A DNA stretch of 33,593 nt from Candidatus Nomurabacteria bacterium (GTDB lineage Bacteria > Patescibacteriota > Minisyncoccia > Phycocordibacterales > UBA9973): the NCBI GenBank assembly GCA_027347985.1, contig DAIEQH010000003.1, positions 1-33,593 on the forward strand, read 5' to 3'. Position 1 is the stretch's first letter. The number at the start of each line of letters is the position of its first letter. The notes under the pieces are model-generated. The model ran no database searches. It was not told the origin of the DNA and worked only from the letters and a program-made list of their open reading frames with translations. Position numbers and translations under genes: made by a program. Shown one piece after another: positions 2,563 to 15,248 of the stretch.

Positions 2563-3894
2563 TTATGGGTTAAGCGATATTTTCTTATTATTCAACAATA
2601 TTCTACTTTTTAAGCATCCCAATAATTCTCTCTTCTGAATATCTTCTCCCTCCTGTAATACATACTTAGCATAACTCCGTATATCGACACCAGATATATT
2701 CACCTTCTCTTTGGTACCCAGAAAAAATTTCTGCATTTTAGTAAATTTCTCAACATCAGCCTTAATTTTTTGTTTGATTTCAATTTCGTTGATATTAAGA
2801 TTTTCTATTAGATTTTCAAACTGTTTAATTAATTCTTTTTCTTCAATGTAGCCACATTTACAATTACCGTCTTTCGCTTTACTACAACCATAGTAGACAT
2901 AACGATGAGTGTTTCCATTTTTATGCTTCTTAAACTTCTCGCAAGCCGAAATGCCAGAATCACATAAACCACAAGCCATCATTTTGGTAAAGGCAAATTC
3001 TTTTCCTTCGGATCTCAAGATCTGGCTTTTAACTTGTTCTTGTACTAAATCGTAAAGTTCTTTAGTAATGATCGGTTCATGTTTGCCTGTGTACCAATTA
3101 CCACTGTTTCTGGGATATTCAAAAATTCCATAGTAAAAAGTATTACTCAATGTTCTATATAAATTACCCAAGCTAAGATGTTTCTTACCGGCGGCCGTTT
3201 TGAAATTGAGGTCAAATCTTAGCCAGTTGTAAACCTTCCTACCACTCCATTTTTCGTAAGCAACTTTCTCAAAGATTTTTTTGATAATGTGACCTCTCTC
3301 GGGATCTATAATTACCTGACACTTCCTATCCATCATTTTTTGATTTAAATATCCGGTTGGAGCTACGCCAGGCCATAGTCCCATTTCAACTCGGGTGCGT
3401 AATCCTCTTTTTACATTCACGCTTTTATTATCATTTTCTAGTTTAGCTTGCGAACAGAGAATCATCAAAAGAAACTTTTCATTTGGTGAATTTTTAAAGT
3501 GCTGTCCGTAAGTGCGAATCTCCATTAATAACTTTTGATCCATGAGGTCAACAATACTTCCTAAATCGCCAGCGTTTCTACTTAATCTATCGGGTGCCCA
3601 GGTCAGAATTCCATTAAATCTTCCTCGTCGTATATCTTCAAGAATTTCTTTGTAAACAGGTCGTTGCCCTGACTCTTTTGCCGAGTGAGATTCTCGCCTA
3701 ATTTCTACAACTTCCAATCCTTCTCTTTCAGCCATGCTAAGCATTTCTTTGATCTGGGAATCAATAGACAAAACTTGGCGTTCTTCTGATTCAGTACTTT
3801 TTCGTGCATACAAAACGTATTTAATTTTTATAGTTGGAGCAATAGCCATAGTGCCTATCAATCCAACATCTGCTTGTTTTTCCATGCCCGTCAC
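2563..3894 (-). CDS. Large serine recombinase (resolvase domain + recombinase domain + zinc ribbon)
   Basis: YVLYARKSTESEERQVLSIDSQ with catalytic Ser region, ILTWAPDRLSRNAGDLG, Cys cluster CGLCDSGISAC...CSKAKDGNCKC. Start may be the internal Met (MAIAPTIKIK, about 3849). Confidence 0.92.
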   Translation of the reverse strand: MTGMEKQADVGLIGTMAIAPTIKIKYVLYARKSTESEERQVLSIDSQIKEMLSMAEREGLEVVEIRRESHSAKESGQRPVYKEILEDIRRGRFNGILTWAPDRLSRNAGDLGSIVDLMDQKLLMEIRTYGQHFKNSPNEKFLLMILCSQAKLENDNKSVNVKRGLRTRVEMGLWPGVAPTGYLNQKMMDRKCQVIIDPERGHIIKKIFEKVAYEKWSGRKVYNWLRFDLNFKTAAGKKHLSLGNLYRTLSNTFYYGIFEYPRNSGNWYTGKHEPIITKELYDLVQEQVKSQILRSEGKEFAFTKMMACGLCDSGISACEKFKKHKNGNTHRYVYYGCSKAKDGNCKCGYIEEKELIKQFENLIENLNINEIEIKQKIKADVEKFTKMQKFFLGTKEKVNISGVDIRSYAKYVLQEGEDIQKRELLGCLKSRILLNNKKISLNP

Positions 3895-3991: not shown

Positions 3992-4018
3992 AATAATAGC
4001 TTAAAAAGTGCTATTATT
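3992..4018. terminator. Hairpin, possible terminator
   Basis: AATAATAGC-TTAAAAAGT-GCTATTATT, 9-bp perfect stem, followed by TCTTT on the + strand. Confidence 0.35.
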
Positions 4019-4078
4019 TCTTTACAAATTAATATTATTCAAAAGGCCTAACCCCTTGGAATTTCTGAGGATATGGTC

Positions 4079-4094
4079 TAAAAACTCGCTACAA
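4079..4094 (+). repeat. 16-bp exact direct repeat, copy 1 (TAAAAACTCGCTACAA)
   Basis: Identical to 4208-4223; part of it forms the 5' arm of the 12-bp hairpin. Confidence 0.8.
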
Positions 4095-4207
4095 GATAAA
4101 GAACCCTTCGTCAGGGTACTTGTAGCGAGTCATAATCGGAAACGGTTATGGGTGGGTCGCAAGATCCATCGCCCGGCGGAGGGCTCTTTGTCTATCTGCT
4201 AGGGTAT

Positions 4208-4223
4208 TAAAAACTCGCTACAA
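4208..4223 (+). repeat. 16-bp exact direct repeat, copy 2, ending 3 nt before the ATG at 4227
   Basis: TAAAAACTCGCTACAA, identical to 4079-4094. Confidence 0.8.
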
Positions 4224-4226
4224 AAT

Positions 4227-4817
4227 ATGTATAAAAGAATTCCAGTGATAAAACTCACTGGAACTGAACAATTCAAGAATGTAGGAAACAAAAATTTCTC
4301 TGTACTTGAGTTTTGGCGTTATGGATTTTCAAATCTTAATTCAAATGTTCTACGGGGAGCGCTAGCAGAATTTATTGTAGAAAATGCCTTAAGAAAAAAT
4401 AATGAAATTGATATTCGTAACCCATGGGGCGACTCGGATGTAATTTCTCCAAACGGAAAAAAGATTGAAGTGAAATGCTGTTCGTATATTCAGGATTGGG
4501 ATCAAAATGATTTTTCAAAAATTCTTTGGAGTGGTCTTAAAGCTAAGAGTTTATACTGGTCATCAGCAGTTAGTGCTTTTCCAAGAAGTCCTGCTGATTT
4601 TAAATCAGATATTTATGTACTGGCTCTTTTCAAGCACCAAGATCATACGACGCTCGATATACTTGATATGGACCAGTGGTGTTTTTGGGTACTGGCGAAA
4701 GAAAAAATAAAAGAGATAACAAAAAATGGGAACAGTATATCGCTTGTTAAACTTCAAAAATTTAATCTCGAGCCAATATCTTTTAATCTTCTATCAGAGG
4801 CTATATTGAGCATCTAA
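4227..4817 (+). CDS. PD-(D/E)xK-like nuclease family protein (putative)
   Basis: RGALAEFIVENAL...NPWGDSDVISPNGKKIEVKCCSYIQDWDQ: conserved E, D and ExK arranged as in PD-(D/E)xK folds. Confidence 0.6.
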   Translation: MYKRIPVIKLTGTEQFKNVGNKNFSVLEFWRYGFSNLNSNVLRGALAEFIVENALRKNNEIDIRNPWGDSDVISPNGKKIEVKCCSYIQDWDQNDFSKILWSGLKAKSLYWSSAVSAFPRSPADFKSDIYVLALFKHQDHTTLDILDMDQWCFWVLAKEKIKEITKNGNSISLVKLQKFNLEPISFNLLSEAILSI

Positions 4818-6274: not shown

Positions 6275-6665
6275 ATTTATTTTGATTATCGCTAATAATA
6301 GTTGTGCCAAGTCTAAGGGCTTCACGCACAATTTTCTTTTGTTCAGGGGTTAATTCTTCCGTATCTTCCTTGGTGGTAATTTCTATCGTATTTTTGTAAT
6401 TGTCATTTCGATGTTTTAACCAGAAGCTGATGGCGGGGTAATTTTTTTCCTTAATAAGGGTTAATAACTGGCTCTCGCTCATGTCGTTTACCAGAGCGAC
6501 ACCGTCAACCAAAGCCTGATCCATTTCTTTAGAAAATTTAGGATCCTCTTTTTTCCAACGGTAAACACTATTTCTAGATACTCCGGTTTTTTCACAGGCA
6601 ACTTGCACGATTGGAACTTTTCTGAGTTCCGCGAAGAAACCATCTTGTAATTTATTTTTCTTCAT
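6195..6665 (-). CDS. Terminase small subunit-like, HTH-containing
   Basis: N-terminal HTH (VACEKTGVSRNSVYRWKKEDPKFSKEMDQAL); immediately upstream of and overlapping the large terminase. Confidence 0.7.
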   Translation of the reverse strand: MKKNKLQDGFFAELRKVPIVQVACEKTGVSRNSVYRWKKEDPKFSKEMDQALVDGVALVNDMSESQLLTLIKEKNYPAISFWLKHRNDNYKNTIEITTKEDTEELTPEQKKIVREALRLGTTIISDNQNKYENNSNDSAKISGKNAKGQKSKNGDN

Positions 6666-7935
6666 GGATTATTTTTACTTTATTACCAGTAAGCTTCTCG
6701 TACCGACGAATCACGAGATCGCAAAATATTGGCTCAAGTTCTATTCCATACACACGGCGATTAAGTTGTTCTCCGGCAACGAGTGTACTACCGGAACCAA
6801 GAAAACTGTCGAGAATAATTTCGCCAAGCCTGGTACAACGACGAATGGCCTTGTTGTGAAGTTGGGGAGGTTTTGAAGTTGCATGCTGTTCTTGATTTTT
6901 ACCAGATAGGCGTTTTTCCATCCATACACTTAAATGGTCGGATGCTTCATCTAGAAGATTGTTGCCGGTGGTCATTTCTTTATTCATAACCTCGTTCAGA
7001 TTTTGAATATTGGGAGCAATATACGGTCGTCCGCGAATTCCATAGGTGCATGGCTCATAACACTTGTTAAATGCAACCGTAGGAACAGGGTTCTGAGAAT
7101 TTTTTAACCATAAGCACACACGTTTGTTTTCAATACCAAGTTCACGGTAAAGTTCTTGGATTAATCCGATAAAAATTTGATCCGACCAGTAGAATATATG
7201 TGTATCTTTTTTGGCTACCAGAAGAGCGTTCACCATGCTTTTACGTAGAAATTCCTTGTAAGCCTTGTCTGTTCGATTGTCTATAACATTTCCACCGTAC
7301 TGTGCTTTTCCACCGATGCCTCCATTGTAATCGAGTGAAATATTATACGGCGGATCGTTATATATCATGGAAACTTTTTCATTTCCAAGCAGTCTTTTGA
7401 GAGCCAGTGGATCTTCAGCACTACCGCAAATTAATTTATGCGGACCCATAATAATCAGGTCGCCTAGTTTAGTTTTTGGAATCTTGATTTTGGCAAGCTC
7501 GGCTTTTTCGTCAAAATCATCATCTTCCGCTTCCAAATTTTCAGTCCATAATTTTGACAGATCAGCATCAGGAAAACCAACATCGCTTAATAGGTCCATT
7601 TGAAAAGATTTTAATTTCTCAAAGTCCCATTCGCCGTCGTTTAAATTACTTTCTAGAGCAATTTTTTCTCGTTCTTCATTGGAAAGTCTACGGTTAGGGG
7701 TAAGCACATTCACTTCCGTAATTCCGAGTTTAGTGAGAGCGGCCTTGCGTTGATTGCCGGACAAAATAGTATTGTCCTGGTCGACTACAATCACACTGTG
7801 AAAACCACGATCCTTAATTCGTTCCATTAATTGAGATAATTTCGCTTTTCCAATCTTGCGTGGGTTTTCTTTCCATACCTTCAAATCTTTAACTTTTTTA
7901 ACTCCCGAACTCCACACCAATTTTATTTTAGACAT
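6652..7935 (-). CDS. ParB/Srx-like domain fused to a DNA methyltransferase
   Basis: N-terminal WKENPRKIGKAKLSQLMERIKDRGFHSVIVVDQDNTILSGNQRKAAL (ParB-like); C-terminal IYNDPPYN and LDSFLGSGSTLVAGEQLNRRVYGIEL (amino-MTase motifs IV and I). Confidence 0.9.
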   Translation of the reverse strand: MSKIKLVWSSGVKKVKDLKVWKENPRKIGKAKLSQLMERIKDRGFHSVIVVDQDNTILSGNQRKAALTKLGITEVNVLTPNRRLSNEEREKIALESNLNDGEWDFEKLKSFQMDLLSDVGFPDADLSKLWTENLEAEDDDFDEKAELAKIKIPKTKLGDLIIMGPHKLICGSAEDPLALKRLLGNEKVSMIYNDPPYNISLDYNGGIGGKAQYGGNVIDNRTDKAYKEFLRKSMVNALLVAKKDTHIFYWSDQIFIGLIQELYRELGIENKRVCLWLKNSQNPVPTVAFNKCYEPCTYGIRGRPYIAPNIQNLNEVMNKEMTTGNNLLDEASDHLSVWMEKRLSGKNQEQHATSKPPQLHNKAIRRCTRLGEIILDSFLGSGSTLVAGEQLNRRVYGIELEPIFCDLVIRRYEKLTGNKVKIIHEEK

Positions 7936-8345: not shown

Positions 8346-11300
8346 ATGTCTAGCAAAGACAACATTAATGAATCAGAAAAACCTCTTGATAACGCAAAAG
8401 GAGTATTGAAATTTTCAAGTGATCGCCAAAAAAAGATATGGCGTGCGTTGGCAAAGTTACATCCAAAATTTGGCAAAAAAATTGCTAGTATTTTCGAGGG
8501 CATAATACTTGCGTTAAACGACAATAACCCTGAAAAAATTTCTATTGTTTCTCACTTAGCAAGAGAACTTACTGAAGTTCTACCTATATACATTTCCGGT
8601 ATTCCAATAAGACAAAAGAGAGCGACTGACGATGAAATCAAAAAAGGTTTGAACAATATATTAAAGATGCTAAAAAGCGGGAAGAAATCTGATGAAAAAA
8701 TAAAAGATGTTGTTGAGAATCTCATAGCACAAATACCAGAACAAAAATCTCAACGTGAACAATTAAGAAAAATTGTTGACTCACATAAGGTTCTCGGATC
8801 TCGCCCATCTTATCTTAACGATGAATTTATAAAGCAATGGATGATAGTAAATAGATATTTTTTAAAATACTGTCATCATAGTGAATTGAAAAACTTACGT
8901 GACGATCCATTTTCTGAGGCAGAACTTAATGCAAATTTGAATACCTTTGAAGTGTTGATCTATAGAATTTTAGTAAAGGAACCGTTTTTTGACACTATGA
9001 AAGAGATAGATAGGCTTATGGGCATAGATAATCCCATAGAAAGAGACGCAGACGAGTTAATGAGACACATAGTAGAACCACAACATCGCAGATATTTTTT
9101 TGAGAGATGCGATAATCCAAATTGGCTAAACCTTTTGAACAAGAGAAATGCCTTTTCTTCCCCACAAGAACCTCTAAAAAAAGACGGATACATACAGTTT
9201 ATTCCATGGCCAGAATCAAAATATTTAGTGAGGGTAGCACATAAAAAACCCTTAGAGGTTTATAAAATAATAGAAAAATTAACATCTGATAACCAGACGG
9301 TATTGTACGACTTTTTAAAAGCCGCATTGGATTCACCTGTAAACATTTCCGCTATGTATGCAAATTTAATTGTAAAAAAGAAATGGCTACAAGGTCCATA
9401 TAATTTAAGTTTGCCAGATCAAGTTGCAGATCTAATGGAAAAACTTGCAAAAGGTAAAAAAGGGAAAGAGGCACTTTATCTTGCCAATGAACTATTTAGG
9501 TTAAGAATAGACAAGCAACGTGCCCCTAAAGATCGAGATGAATTGAGATTTTTCCATCCAGATGCAAAACCTTACTACGACGAATGGCAATTCAAAGAGA
9601 TTGTCGGTAAAAAAACGAAGGAACTTGCTAAAATAAAACCAAAAGAACTATTCAATACATACATTCAAAAACTAAAAGAAGCCATCGAACTTGAAAAACG
9701 AGGGAATAAAGATGGTAATTTCTATGAATACTCACACATTTGGAGACCAAATTTATCTATATCAAGAAACAAAACAGAGGATGCAAAAAATATTTTACTT
9801 GATGGTATTATTCAACTAATAGAACAGTATAAAAATGATCCTGTAATACTAAAACAATTTTCCGTTGTCCTTCGTAAATGTTCTTATGCTCTTTTCAGAA
9901 GAATTGAGATGTTTTTGTATAAGTTTGATTCTAATATTTTTACCAAAGAGTCAGAAAAGATATTAAGAAATAGAAGAATAATAATCGCTTACAATTTGAG
10001 ACGTGAATATCTACCGCTACTTGAAATCATGTACGACAAAATCTCTACCTCTTCAAAGAAATATATTTTAAAAGTCATAGAAGGAGGCCCTGATTTCAAG
10101 AAACCCAAAGATTATACAGACGAACAATTTGAGAGGATGACATCCAATTGGAAATCTCTCTACCTATCTCCCATAAAAGACAAACTTTCAAAGGGGTATT
10201 CAGATAAATATAGTAAAATAATTAAAAAATATGATAAACCAATTGACGATGATGGCGAAATGACAGTTTGGGATGGTGGTAAAAGTCCAATTTCGGCTGA
10301 AGATCTTTCGAAATTAGACGCTGATGAAACCCTGAAATACTTAGCCGATTACAAAATGCCAGATGATCCTTTTGGAAGGCACTCCTCTTCTGGTTTGGGC
10401 ATGATATTTTCCGGCCTTGTTGCAGAAAATCCAGAAAAATATGTTCCAACAGCGAAAAACTTTTTTGAAAGAAAAACTCGTCCAATATATTTTTATCATT
10501 TAATACATGGATTAAGAGAATCATTGGTAAAGAAAAAGTGTTTCAGTTGGAAACCAATTATAGAACTATGTTATAGAATCGTAGTAAAAAAAGAATATAA
10601 TTCAGAGCCTGTAAATAACGACGAACAAGACTGGAATTCTGTAAGACTTGCCATTGCCGATTTCTTAGGAAGAGCATTGGGGGATGATACTTGCGAAATC
10701 CCTACCATATTTAGAAAAGAAATATGGGATATAGTATCAAATCTAGCGGAAGATCAGGACCCCACCCCTGAGTATGAACATAAAGATAGCGAAGGCGGCT
10801 TAGATCCTATGACTCTAGCAATAAATACAGTGCGTGGAGAAGCCATGCATGCAGTTGTAAATTATGGTCTTTGGATTGCTCGAAATCTTCCAGATAAATC
10901 TATTGAGGTAAAGATGCCAGAAGAGATGGAAGAATTACTCAATAAGCATTTAGATATTAAACAAGATCCCTCATTGGCCATCCGTTCAGTGTATGGATGG
11001 AGATTACCCAATTTACACTATTTAAATAAACCTTGGATAGAAAAAAATAAAGAAAAGATTTTTGCAAAAGACTCGCCGGATTATCTACTGGCAGCATGGG
11101 AAGGATATTTAGCCAATAATATTCTTAAGGAAGTATTTTCTATACTTAAGCAACAATATTATGACTTTATTCCATATCTAGGGACTCTTGAAAAGAAAGG
11201 GTATCGTGCGGCAGATATAGATCAACGGTTTCCACAACATGTGGCAGTTATTTATGCAAATGAACCAGAGCATGAAGATTTTGTAGATTATTTTTTTAAA

Positions 11301-11816
11301 ACAGCTCCTGTAAAAACTCGCGCAGAAGCAATAAATTTTATCGGCCGAGTAATATTAAGACAACTTGAAGCATTCCCAAACAAAGAAGAAGTTAAAAAAA
11401 GGTTGGGCAATTTATGGGATAAAAGAATTTCTCTTTCTGAAGAACAAACTGAAACGGAAGAACTAAAAGAATTTGGTTGGTGGTTTAAAGTAAGCCCATT
11501 CTCTAAAAAAGAGACTTTGGAACGAACTATAAAAACCCTCAAACTCATTAAAGGTGTTATTAACGTACCCTACGAAATTGCAGAAGAACTCAAAATATAT
11601 GCTAAGGAATTGCCAGTTGAAACTATCACCTTGCTTGATTTAATTGTTAGAGCAGAGAGAGAGAATTACGAGCATCTTTATAAAAAGGAAGAGTATAGAG
11701 AAGTTATAAAGATAGTAAAAGCTACCGGGAACAAAACAGCAAACAAGATTGTTAAAGATCTTATTAATTATTTAGGGTCAATCGGGTTGATTGATGATTT
11801 CAGAGACCTTCTCTAA
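8346..11816 (+). CDS. Large (1156 aa) helical protein of unknown function; candidate defence component
   Basis: Uninterrupted ORF with no obvious P-loop. C-terminal FGWWFKVSPFSKKETLERTIKTL...DLIVRAERENYEHL...NKTANKIVKDLINYLGSIGLIDDFRDLL resembles, from memory, C-terminal regions of large STAND/SIR2-linked defence proteins. Confidence 0.5.
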   Translation: MSSKDNINESEKPLDNAKGVLKFSSDRQKKIWRALAKLHPKFGKKIASIFEGIILALNDNNPEKISIVSHLARELTEVLPIYISGIPIRQKRATDDEIKKGLNNILKMLKSGKKSDEKIKDVVENLIAQIPEQKSQREQLRKIVDSHKVLGSRPSYLNDEFIKQWMIVNRYFLKYCHHSELKNLRDDPFSEAELNANLNTFEVLIYRILVKEPFFDTMKEIDRLMGIDNPIERDADELMRHIVEPQHRRYFFERCDNPNWLNLLNKRNAFSSPQEPLKKDGYIQFIPWPESKYLVRVAHKKPLEVYKIIEKLTSDNQTVLYDFLKAALDSPVNISAMYANLIVKKKWLQGPYNLSLPDQVADLMEKLAKGKKGKEALYLANELFRLRIDKQRAPKDRDELRFFHPDAKPYYDEWQFKEIVGKKTKELAKIKPKELFNTYIQKLKEAIELEKRGNKDGNFYEYSHIWRPNLSISRNKTEDAKNILLDGIIQLIEQYKNDPVILKQFSVVLRKCSYALFRRIEMFLYKFDSNIFTKESEKILRNRRIIIAYNLRREYLPLLEIMYDKISTSSKKYILKVIEGGPDFKKPKDYTDEQFERMTSNWKSLYLSPIKDKLSKGYSDKYSKIIKKYDKPIDDDGEMTVWDGGKSPISAEDLSKLDADETLKYLADYKMPDDPFGRHSSSGLGMIFSGLVAENPEKYVPTAKNFFERKTRPIYFYHLIHGLRESLVKKKCFSWKPIIELCYRIVVKKEYNSEPVNNDEQDWNSVRLAIADFLGRALGDDTCEIPTIFRKEIWDIVSNLAEDQDPTPEYEHKDSEGGLDPMTLAINTVRGEAMHAVVNYGLWIARNLPDKSIEVKMPEEMEELLNKHLDIKQDPSLAIRSVYGWRLPNLHYLNKPWIEKNKEKIFAKDSPDYLLAAWEGYLANNILKEVFSILKQQYYDFIPYLGTLEKKGYRAADIDQRFPQHVAVIYANEPEHEDFVDYFFKTAPVKTRAEAINFIGRVILRQLEAFPNKEEVKKRLGNLWDKRISLSEEQTETEELKEFGWWFKVSPFSKKETLERTIKTLKLIKGVINVPYEIAEELKIYAKELPVETITLLDLIVRAERENYEHLYKKEEYREVIKIVKATGNKTANKIVKDLINYLGSIGLIDDFRDLL

Positions 11817-14067: not shown

Positions 14068-14096
14068 GTAATATAATCATCTTCGTTTCTTTGTGT

Positions 14097-14102
14097 TATA
14101 AT
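14097..14102 (+). promoter_or_regulatory. Extended -10 promoter (TGTTATAAT), leaderless start
   Basis: TATAAT 6 nt upstream of the ATG at 14109. Confidence 0.55.
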
Positions 14103-14108
14103 AAAAAT

Positions 14109-15248
14109 ATGGAAAACAATATCTTAAATTTATTTAATGAATTTCTAAAAAATTATGATGTGGAATCTAAGGATGCATTGTGGTCAGAACAGAGCTTAAA
14201 ATTTAGAAATTTTTGGCAAGATAAAATTTTCTCTCATTCCAAAGATGAGCTTAATGATACAGAGACTGATGAAATTATTAGGATATTAGATAGGAACGGT
14301 AGAGGTAATACAAAAGAGAGTGAGGCAGTGGCAAAAGCCATGATTGCTCAAGGTGCTTGGAGAAGAATGTTTAATGAACTAAAAAACAAACAACCATTAC
14401 ACGAATGTCTAGACAGAATATTTAAAAGCTCTGGGGATGAAAGAGAGAAGTTAATTAATCAACTATATAAATTAAATGAAGGAAATCGCAATAATTTAAC
14501 TGGACCAAGTGGCAACGCAATCAATGATATGATTTTTGCCTGGGACCCATCTTCTAATCTCAGCATTATATCCTTAAACGATCGCAAGAAAGTTCTTGAA
14601 TATTTTGGATTTGAAAATCGTACAGTTTTTGAAAAAGATTCAATTGGAGAAAAAATTGTTAAATCAAATGAAGATATTATTAAAGGTTTTAAGTCTTTAA
14701 GTATATATGGATCACCAAGAACAGTAAGCACATTTTTGTATTCAATCAATGTACAATCTCTTTGGAAAACTGAATCTGAAAAAGAGTTTACAAGCGTAAG
14801 TGAAGAAAAACCATCTCAAATAATAGGTGAAAATGAATCTTCGGATCAGACTTTGTTTTATATGGAAAAAGAACTTGAAAATTTTTTAATCAAAAACTGG
14901 GAAAAAACTGAATTGGGTAAAAAATATGATTTGATTGAAGAAGATGGAAAATTCAGCCAGCAATACCCAACTGGAGTTGGCCCAATAGATATTTTAGTAA
15001 AAGACAAAAAAGATGGAACATATATCGTGATTGAATTAAAGAGAAATCAAACAAGTGACGATACTATAGGTCAATTAGCTAGATATATGGGGTGGCTTAA
15101 AGAAAATAAAACAAACGGAAAAACAGTAAAAGGAATAATTATTACAGGAGGATATGATGAAAGACTTTATTATGCATCCCAAATGCTAATTGGTTGTGAA
15201 ATATACATATATCAGGTTGATTTCAAATTAAAAGAATTTAAAGAATAG
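14109..15248 (+). CDS. NucS/DUF91-like PD-(D/E)xK nuclease domain protein
   Basis: C-terminal YPTGVGPIDILVKDKKDGTYIVIELKRNQTSDDTIGQLARYMGWLKE: D...ExK...QLxRY motif. Start refined from the ORF track to MENNILN. Confidence 0.75.
   Translation: MENNILNLFNEFLKNYDVESKDALWSEQSLKFRNFWQDKIFSHSKDELNDTETDEIIRILDRNGRGNTKESEAVAKAMIAQGAWRRMFNELKNKQPLHECLDRIFKSSGDEREKLINQLYKLNEGNRNNLTGPSGNAINDMIFAWDPSSNLSIISLNDRKKVLEYFGFENRTVFEKDSIGEKIVKSNEDIIKGFKSLSIYGSPRTVSTFLYSINVQSLWKTESEKEFTSVSEEKPSQIIGENESSDQTLFYMEKELENFLIKNWEKTELGKKYDLIEEDGKFSQQYPTGVGPIDILVKDKKDGTYIVIELKRNQTSDDTIGQLARYMGWLKENKTNGKTVKGIIITGGYDERLYYASQMLIGCEIYIYQVDFKLKEFKE

Follow-up and report, generated by a model that had tools for sequence, protein, structure and literature searches.

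The window, which is the whole 33,593-nt stretch of DNA that was analysed, contains a compact array of hairpins between a divergent serine integrase gene and the gene of a putative PD-(D/E)XK nuclease. A cmscan search identifies the array at 4045-4170 (+) as a bona fide LOOT RNA, a known Rfam family (RF03000), with a score of 83 bits against a gathering score of 46.4 and with model positions 1-121 all covered; the original prediction had recognised no known family. The helices and both GNRA loops that it described are present, the loops lying in P3 (4131-4150) and P4 (4151-4170). Folding against shuffled controls, which it had proposed as a check, places the + strand of 4040-4230 at -73.9 kcal/mol, below all 200 dinucleotide shuffles (-47.5 ± 4.3 kcal/mol; z = -6.1, 0/200 as low), and the reverse strand at a z of merely -2.3. 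Besides the Rfam family, two further characteristics were absent from that prediction: the loop of the long hairpin can pair with 4171-4192, and a copy of the P2 5′ strand directly precedes the start codon. The features of the locus are:

2563-3894, - strand: divergent serine integrase (Pfam Resolvase/Recombinase; phrog_95 integrase)
4012-4017, + strand: predicted extended -10 box, TG-n-TATTAT (scan; aligned LOOT upstream regions)
4024-4034, + strand: 5′-terminal element ACAAATTAATA (consensus ACAAYTKAATA), with the predicted transcript start at 4024
4045-4170, + strand: LOOT RNA, P1-P4 as in the Rfam model (cmscan RF03000, 83 bits)
4045-4078, + strand: P1 hairpin with a CCUAAC/UAUGG internal loop, a putative variant of the 11-nt GAAA-tetraloop receptor
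4084-4095, + strand: R, the 5′ strand of P2, ACTCGCTACAAG
4096-4118, + strand: L, the apical loop of P2, which can form the apical hairpin P2a (4103-4117) or P5 with L′
4119-4130, + strand: R*, the 3′ strand of P2, CTTGTAGCGAGT, complementary to R and R′
4131-4150, + strand: P3, CATAATCG-GAAA-CGGTTATG
4151-4170, + strand: P4, GGTGGGTC-GCAA-GATCCATC, whose loop varies in the family
4171-4192, + strand: L′, the 3′ strand of P5, with a T-rich run at its end, beyond the Rfam model (duplex energies, covariation)
4213-4223, + strand: R′, an exact copy of R that is also complementary to R* and lies 3 nt upstream of the ATG
4227-4817, + strand: 196-aa PD-(D/E)XK restriction-endonuclease-like protein, the putative controlled gene

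Rfam assigns LOOT the type 'Gene; sRNA' and models only P1-P4. No function for LOOT was found in the literature searched, a scope outside which the original description, reportedly dated 2017, lies. The host of the window belongs to the Patescibacteria, which are ultra-small bacteria. The family is found in 84/382 genomes across this phylum and in 0/14 control genomes. Its spread is patchy and often multi-copy, with LOOTs in 45/100 relatives and up to 7 copies in a ~0.7 Mb genome; these counts are lower bounds, as one LOOT (L193, G003:C15:20858; 64.6 bits) escaped the strict-filter whole-genome family search. The comparisons that follow use 143 Patescibacteria LOOTs, oriented and with their flanks.

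Across these LOOTs, P1 follows the pattern CCUAA[A/C] ... [C/U]AUGG, with CCUAA on its 5′ side in 133/143 and AUGG on its 3′ side in 128/143. The P3 loop is GAAA in 133/136 of the hairpins found, and the P4 loop varies among GAAA, GCAA, UUCG and GUAA. Variants of the 11-nt GAAA receptor that are related to LOOT's P1 motif have been measured (PMC11381326). In comparison to that receptor, the CCUAA, AUGG and GAAA segments are conserved and the closing pair differs from CCUAAG/UAUGG. Because the P3 loop and the P1 motif resemble a tetraloop and its receptor, the P3 tetraloop likely docks to P1, by analogy with known receptors.

The Rfam model omits a further helix, P5, formed over 17-20 bp by the P2 apical loop and the stretch immediately 3′ of P4, and followed by a U-run. 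The mean duplex energy of P5 is -24.7 kcal/mol with a LOOT's own partner and -13.2 kcal/mol with the swapped partner from another locus. In a 62-sequence alignment, 92.0% of cells are paired, double changes occur at 17/17 pairs, and the covariation score is 0.576, compared to 47-52% paired and covariation scores of at most 0.19 when the partner is slid by 1-3 columns. P2a, the local apical hairpin of the same loop, is under selection too (p <= 0.05 in 76% of loops). P5 occupies nearly the whole P2 loop and leaves linkers to P2 that average only about 0.5 and 1.9 nt, so that P2 and P5 should not be able to form in full at the same time. Covariation in P5, the apical hairpin and linkers of 0-2 nt together indicate two conserved helices; on geometric grounds these look mutually exclusive and the RNA bistable, although a partial P2-P5 pseudoknot may form. 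The calculated energies of the two states are close (-60.4 and -58.8 kcal/mol), and the minimum-energy fold is state A (P2 closed) in a longer window fragment and state B (P5 closed) in 4045-4198; the folding energies therefore leave the polarity of any switch unsettled.

The sequence following P5 is T-rich, with longest T-runs averaging 4.35 compared to 2.40 in genes. A GC-rich stem lies directly before a U-tract, as in an intrinsic terminator, with the 5′ strand remote and the U-tract often interrupted. Because it ends in this U-run, P5 resembles, as predicted from sequence, a terminator whose two strands lie about 50 nt apart; the U-runs that are short or interrupted (UUUUUGC, UUUGUGU), which are frequent, count against this reading.

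A same-strand ORF of at least 45 aa that starts with ATG begins 30-80 nt past the Rfam model in 122/140 LOOTs, compared to 13/142 when the opposite strand upstream is examined and 34/139 for control positions within the downstream DNA. LOOT is accordingly found where riboswitches and other cis-acting leaders are found, as a conserved structured RNA 5′ of a same-strand gene, and its sequence context points to a cis-acting leader rather than a free sRNA. Three options had been offered for the array, and this position makes a cis-regulatory leader the best supported of them. The 125 downstream genes are diverse; recurrent products are DNA methyltransferases, staphylococcal-nuclease-like nucleases, DUF4352 and zinc-ribbon proteins, and superinfection immunity or exclusion proteins, including a host-surface Ltp lipoprotein. 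Ltp is a known superinfection exclusion factor whose gene belongs to a lysogeny module and is transcribed from the prophage (PMC3952083). A leader peptide that would begin at the AUGG conserved in P1 was considered and rejected, as its frame often stops after 2-9 codons.

The sequences upstream of LOOT carry a predicted promoter. Aligned, they show G at -14 and TATAAT at -12 to -7, followed by a conserved ACAA. Across 100 genomes, the exact pattern of promoter and 5′ element (with a TDAATA end) occurs 41 times, at 22 LOOT, 13 SAM-I and 1 T-box leaders and 5 sites elsewhere, compared to 19 occurrences of the reversed pattern; the T-box leader matches below its Rfam gathering score (41 versus 93 bits). 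Moreover, at least 9/11 positions of the element are matched in 18/20 SAM-I leaders compared to 66/1338 random windows. Because LOOT has this promoter and 5′ element in common with SAM-I leaders and one T-box leader, LOOT groups with established cis-acting leaders. The -10 box with ACAAYTKAATA (window 4012-4034; L190, L194, L197 and L234) is rarely seen ahead of ordinary genes.

In the window, ACTCGCTACAA at 4084-4094, within the 5′ strand of P2, is repeated at 4213-4223, just ahead of the ATG at 4227. The sequence downstream of a LOOT exactly matches the reverse complement of its own R* over 9 nt or more in 36/143 cases, compared to 14/19378 (0.07%) when partners are swapped, and over 11 nt or more in 21/143 compared to 0 swapped. 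About 26% of LOOTs, including the window's, carry R′; because about 74% are without it, masking of the start codon cannot be how LOOTs work in general. In 35/37 cases R′ ends within -4 to +5 nt of the ATG, with 28 distinct R′ sequences, and 0/30 R′ genes tested have a Shine-Dalgarno-like motif. At stem positions that distinguish R from the complement of R*, R′ agrees with the complement by 6:1. Further, the nuclease gene is preceded by four different R/R*/R′ triplets at four loci (the window, L169, L171 and L172), and such differing, co-matching triplets are what selection for R*:R′ pairing would predict.

Among LOOTs without R′, several have a pre-ATG segment complementary to the U-run and its next bases (L045, L046, L049, L059 and L071, and further L073, L074, L087, L095 and L135), for example UUUUUGCGU/ACGCAAAAA and UUUUUGUGU/ACACAAAAA, in many cases flanking a UUUAUAAAUA spacer. 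Such complements of at least 7 nt occur in 10/80 LOOTs, compared to 5% in swaps. Pre-ATG complementarity to other LOOT segments showed no enrichment worth claiming in LOOTs without R′, and pairing between the 5′ element and the pre-ATG segment was rejected, with own and swapped partners scoring alike.

The same observations can be read as those of a trans-acting sRNA, where P5 would be its own terminator and R* a seed that binds R′ on the neighbouring mRNA, or on that of an incoming relative, for instance to confer superinfection immunity. Rfam's type for LOOT agrees with this reading, P5 and its U-run would terminate an RNA of ~170 nt, R* complements the start region in 36/143 LOOTs, and an 8-nt R* is common to just 1/83 within-genome pairs. 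We nevertheless consider it unlikely: the ATG follows LOOT at a nearly fixed, short spacing that leaves little space for a second promoter, the leader position in 122/140 counts against a free-standing sRNA of the Rfam type, and the 5′ element of LOOT also marks known cis leaders. Within genomes, R* is shared in 1.2% of pairs, which is not below the 0.56% between genomes, and selection against cross-talk is thus not apparent. No avoidance of a common R* among the LOOTs of one genome was seen (1/83 pairs); such avoidance would have pointed to action in trans.

The genes around LOOT are those of prophage-like elements. The window itself has the serine integrase, terminase subunits, a ParB-methyltransferase and a Dsr1-like defence gene. 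In particular, a ParB-like domain fused to a DNA methyltransferase (6652-7935) lies beside the terminase genes, a combination that recurs among other LOOT-bearing elements; 8346-11816 encodes a 1156-aa protein resembling the antiphage defence protein Dsr1 (PADLOC E = 8e-49), and a gene with a NucS-like domain follows at 14091-15248. Across 20 genomes, the serine recombinases within 3 kb of a LOOT are all upstream and divergent (13 vs 0). Within 12 kb, 29/48 LOOTs have an upstream divergent serine integrase, 19/48 have no upstream integrase, and the other three arrangements together account for 8 cases. The proteins sampled from nine regions with a LOOT and an integrase include 10 integrases, terminase subunits, ParB-like proteins and S24/LexA-type repressors, and LOOT cargo includes restriction, methylation and superinfection-exclusion genes. 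Because integrases, terminases, ParB-like proteins and repressors surround LOOTs, their cargo is placed near the integrase of prophage-like elements. The suggestion of a mobile-element ncRNA holds as far as this location, and nothing beyond location was borne out. A search of phage and plasmid records for similar DNA gave no match.

This setting also raises the alternative of a DNA-level recombination or target-site element, with LOOT as a structured insertion site or cassette boundary, since LOOTs divergently adjoin serine integrases and loci with a common integrase can lose similarity inside LOOT where the cargo changes. That appears very improbable: R′ matches the complement of R*, not R, by 6:1 at discriminating positions, its distance is fixed relative to the ATG but not relative to the integrase, 19/48 LOOTs have no upstream integrase within 12 kb, and P5 covariation with conservation of the GAAA loop and its receptor motif favours selection at the RNA level.

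The call of a PD-(D/E)XK nuclease downstream is plausible. The protein has the conserved residues E48, D71 and EVK 81-83, and among PDB folds its AlphaFold model, of modest quality, comes nearest to the NhoI restriction endonuclease (E = 5e-3, prob 1.00). Searches with the nuclease sequence against Pfam, PADLOC and the PDB gave nothing, and its single-sequence fold was uninformative (pLDDT 34). The earlier suggestion that the RNA works with this nuclease, as its guide or cofactor, is largely refuted already and retains hardly any probability: four homologues (76-83% identical) do have a LOOT directly upstream, but none precedes the 59%-identical homologues L173 and L174, very many unrelated genes follow most LOOTs, and the consistent linkage to one effector family that marks OMEGA-type guide RNAs is not seen.

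Overall, LOOT is probably a cis-acting 5′ leader of a cargo gene in a prophage-like element, working as a two-state switch of terminator and start codon. Comparison among LOOTs supplies their position as leaders, the helix P5, the complementarity of R* to R′ and the use of one loop by P2a and P5. From these we infer the following sequence of events. Transcription would begin at the predicted start, 4024, and the long hairpin P2 (R:R*, with P2a) would be the first to form, occupying the loop L, in a core probably stabilised by the P1-P3 tetraloop-receptor contact. In this state A, RNA polymerase would read through and the start codon would be free (ON). In state B, L′ would capture L, creating the terminator-like P5 of 17-20 bp with its U-run and opening P2; in about a quarter of LOOTs, including the window's, the freed R* would then pair with R′ and block initiation (OFF), a double lock where R′ exists. 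Some ligand, protein or kinetic effect would shift the balance between A and B. The group with U-run complements (for example L046, L049 and L087) does not simply fit this polarity, and the putatively controlled genes share no single pathway, which counts against the explanation.

A broader proposal is possible rather than probable: LOOT may represent a new riboswitch-like leader class through which prophage-like elements of Patescibacteria let a common signal, such as infection or lysogeny state, govern their restriction, methylation and superinfection-exclusion cargo, using a double lock of split terminator and start-codon mask, with the mask sequence co-evolving with the leader for each gene. 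The candidate phyla radiation is a huge and mostly uncultured group; if the proposal is true, its phage-borne defence and accessory genes would have a common RNA control layer. More immediately, the orphan LOOT family shifts from a 'free sRNA' towards a 'switch before prophage cargo', and naming the competing helices base by base makes its function testable with simple reporters.

The LOOT family was already known, and the window RNA spans the full Rfam model (83 bits); new to it are the prophage setting and leader position, the 3′ strand L′ that completes P5, the start-codon copy R′ in about a quarter of LOOTs, and the shared 5′ element. The P3 GAAA loop and the P1 CCUAA[A/C] ... [C/U]AUGG pattern resemble the GAAA/11-nt receptor pair of the group I intron P4-P6 type, where the classical receptor (CCUAAG/UAUGG) closes with a G.U pair and LOOT has A.C or C.U. 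LOOT differs from riboswitch platforms in having no known ligand and controlled genes without a common pathway, and in a terminator-like helix whose 5′ half lies in an apical loop, about 50 nt before its 3′ half. In common with the SAM-I and T-box riboswitch leaders of the same genomes, it appears as a one-gene 5′ leader with helices that should exclude each other, a U-run after the late helix, and the same promoter and 5′ element.
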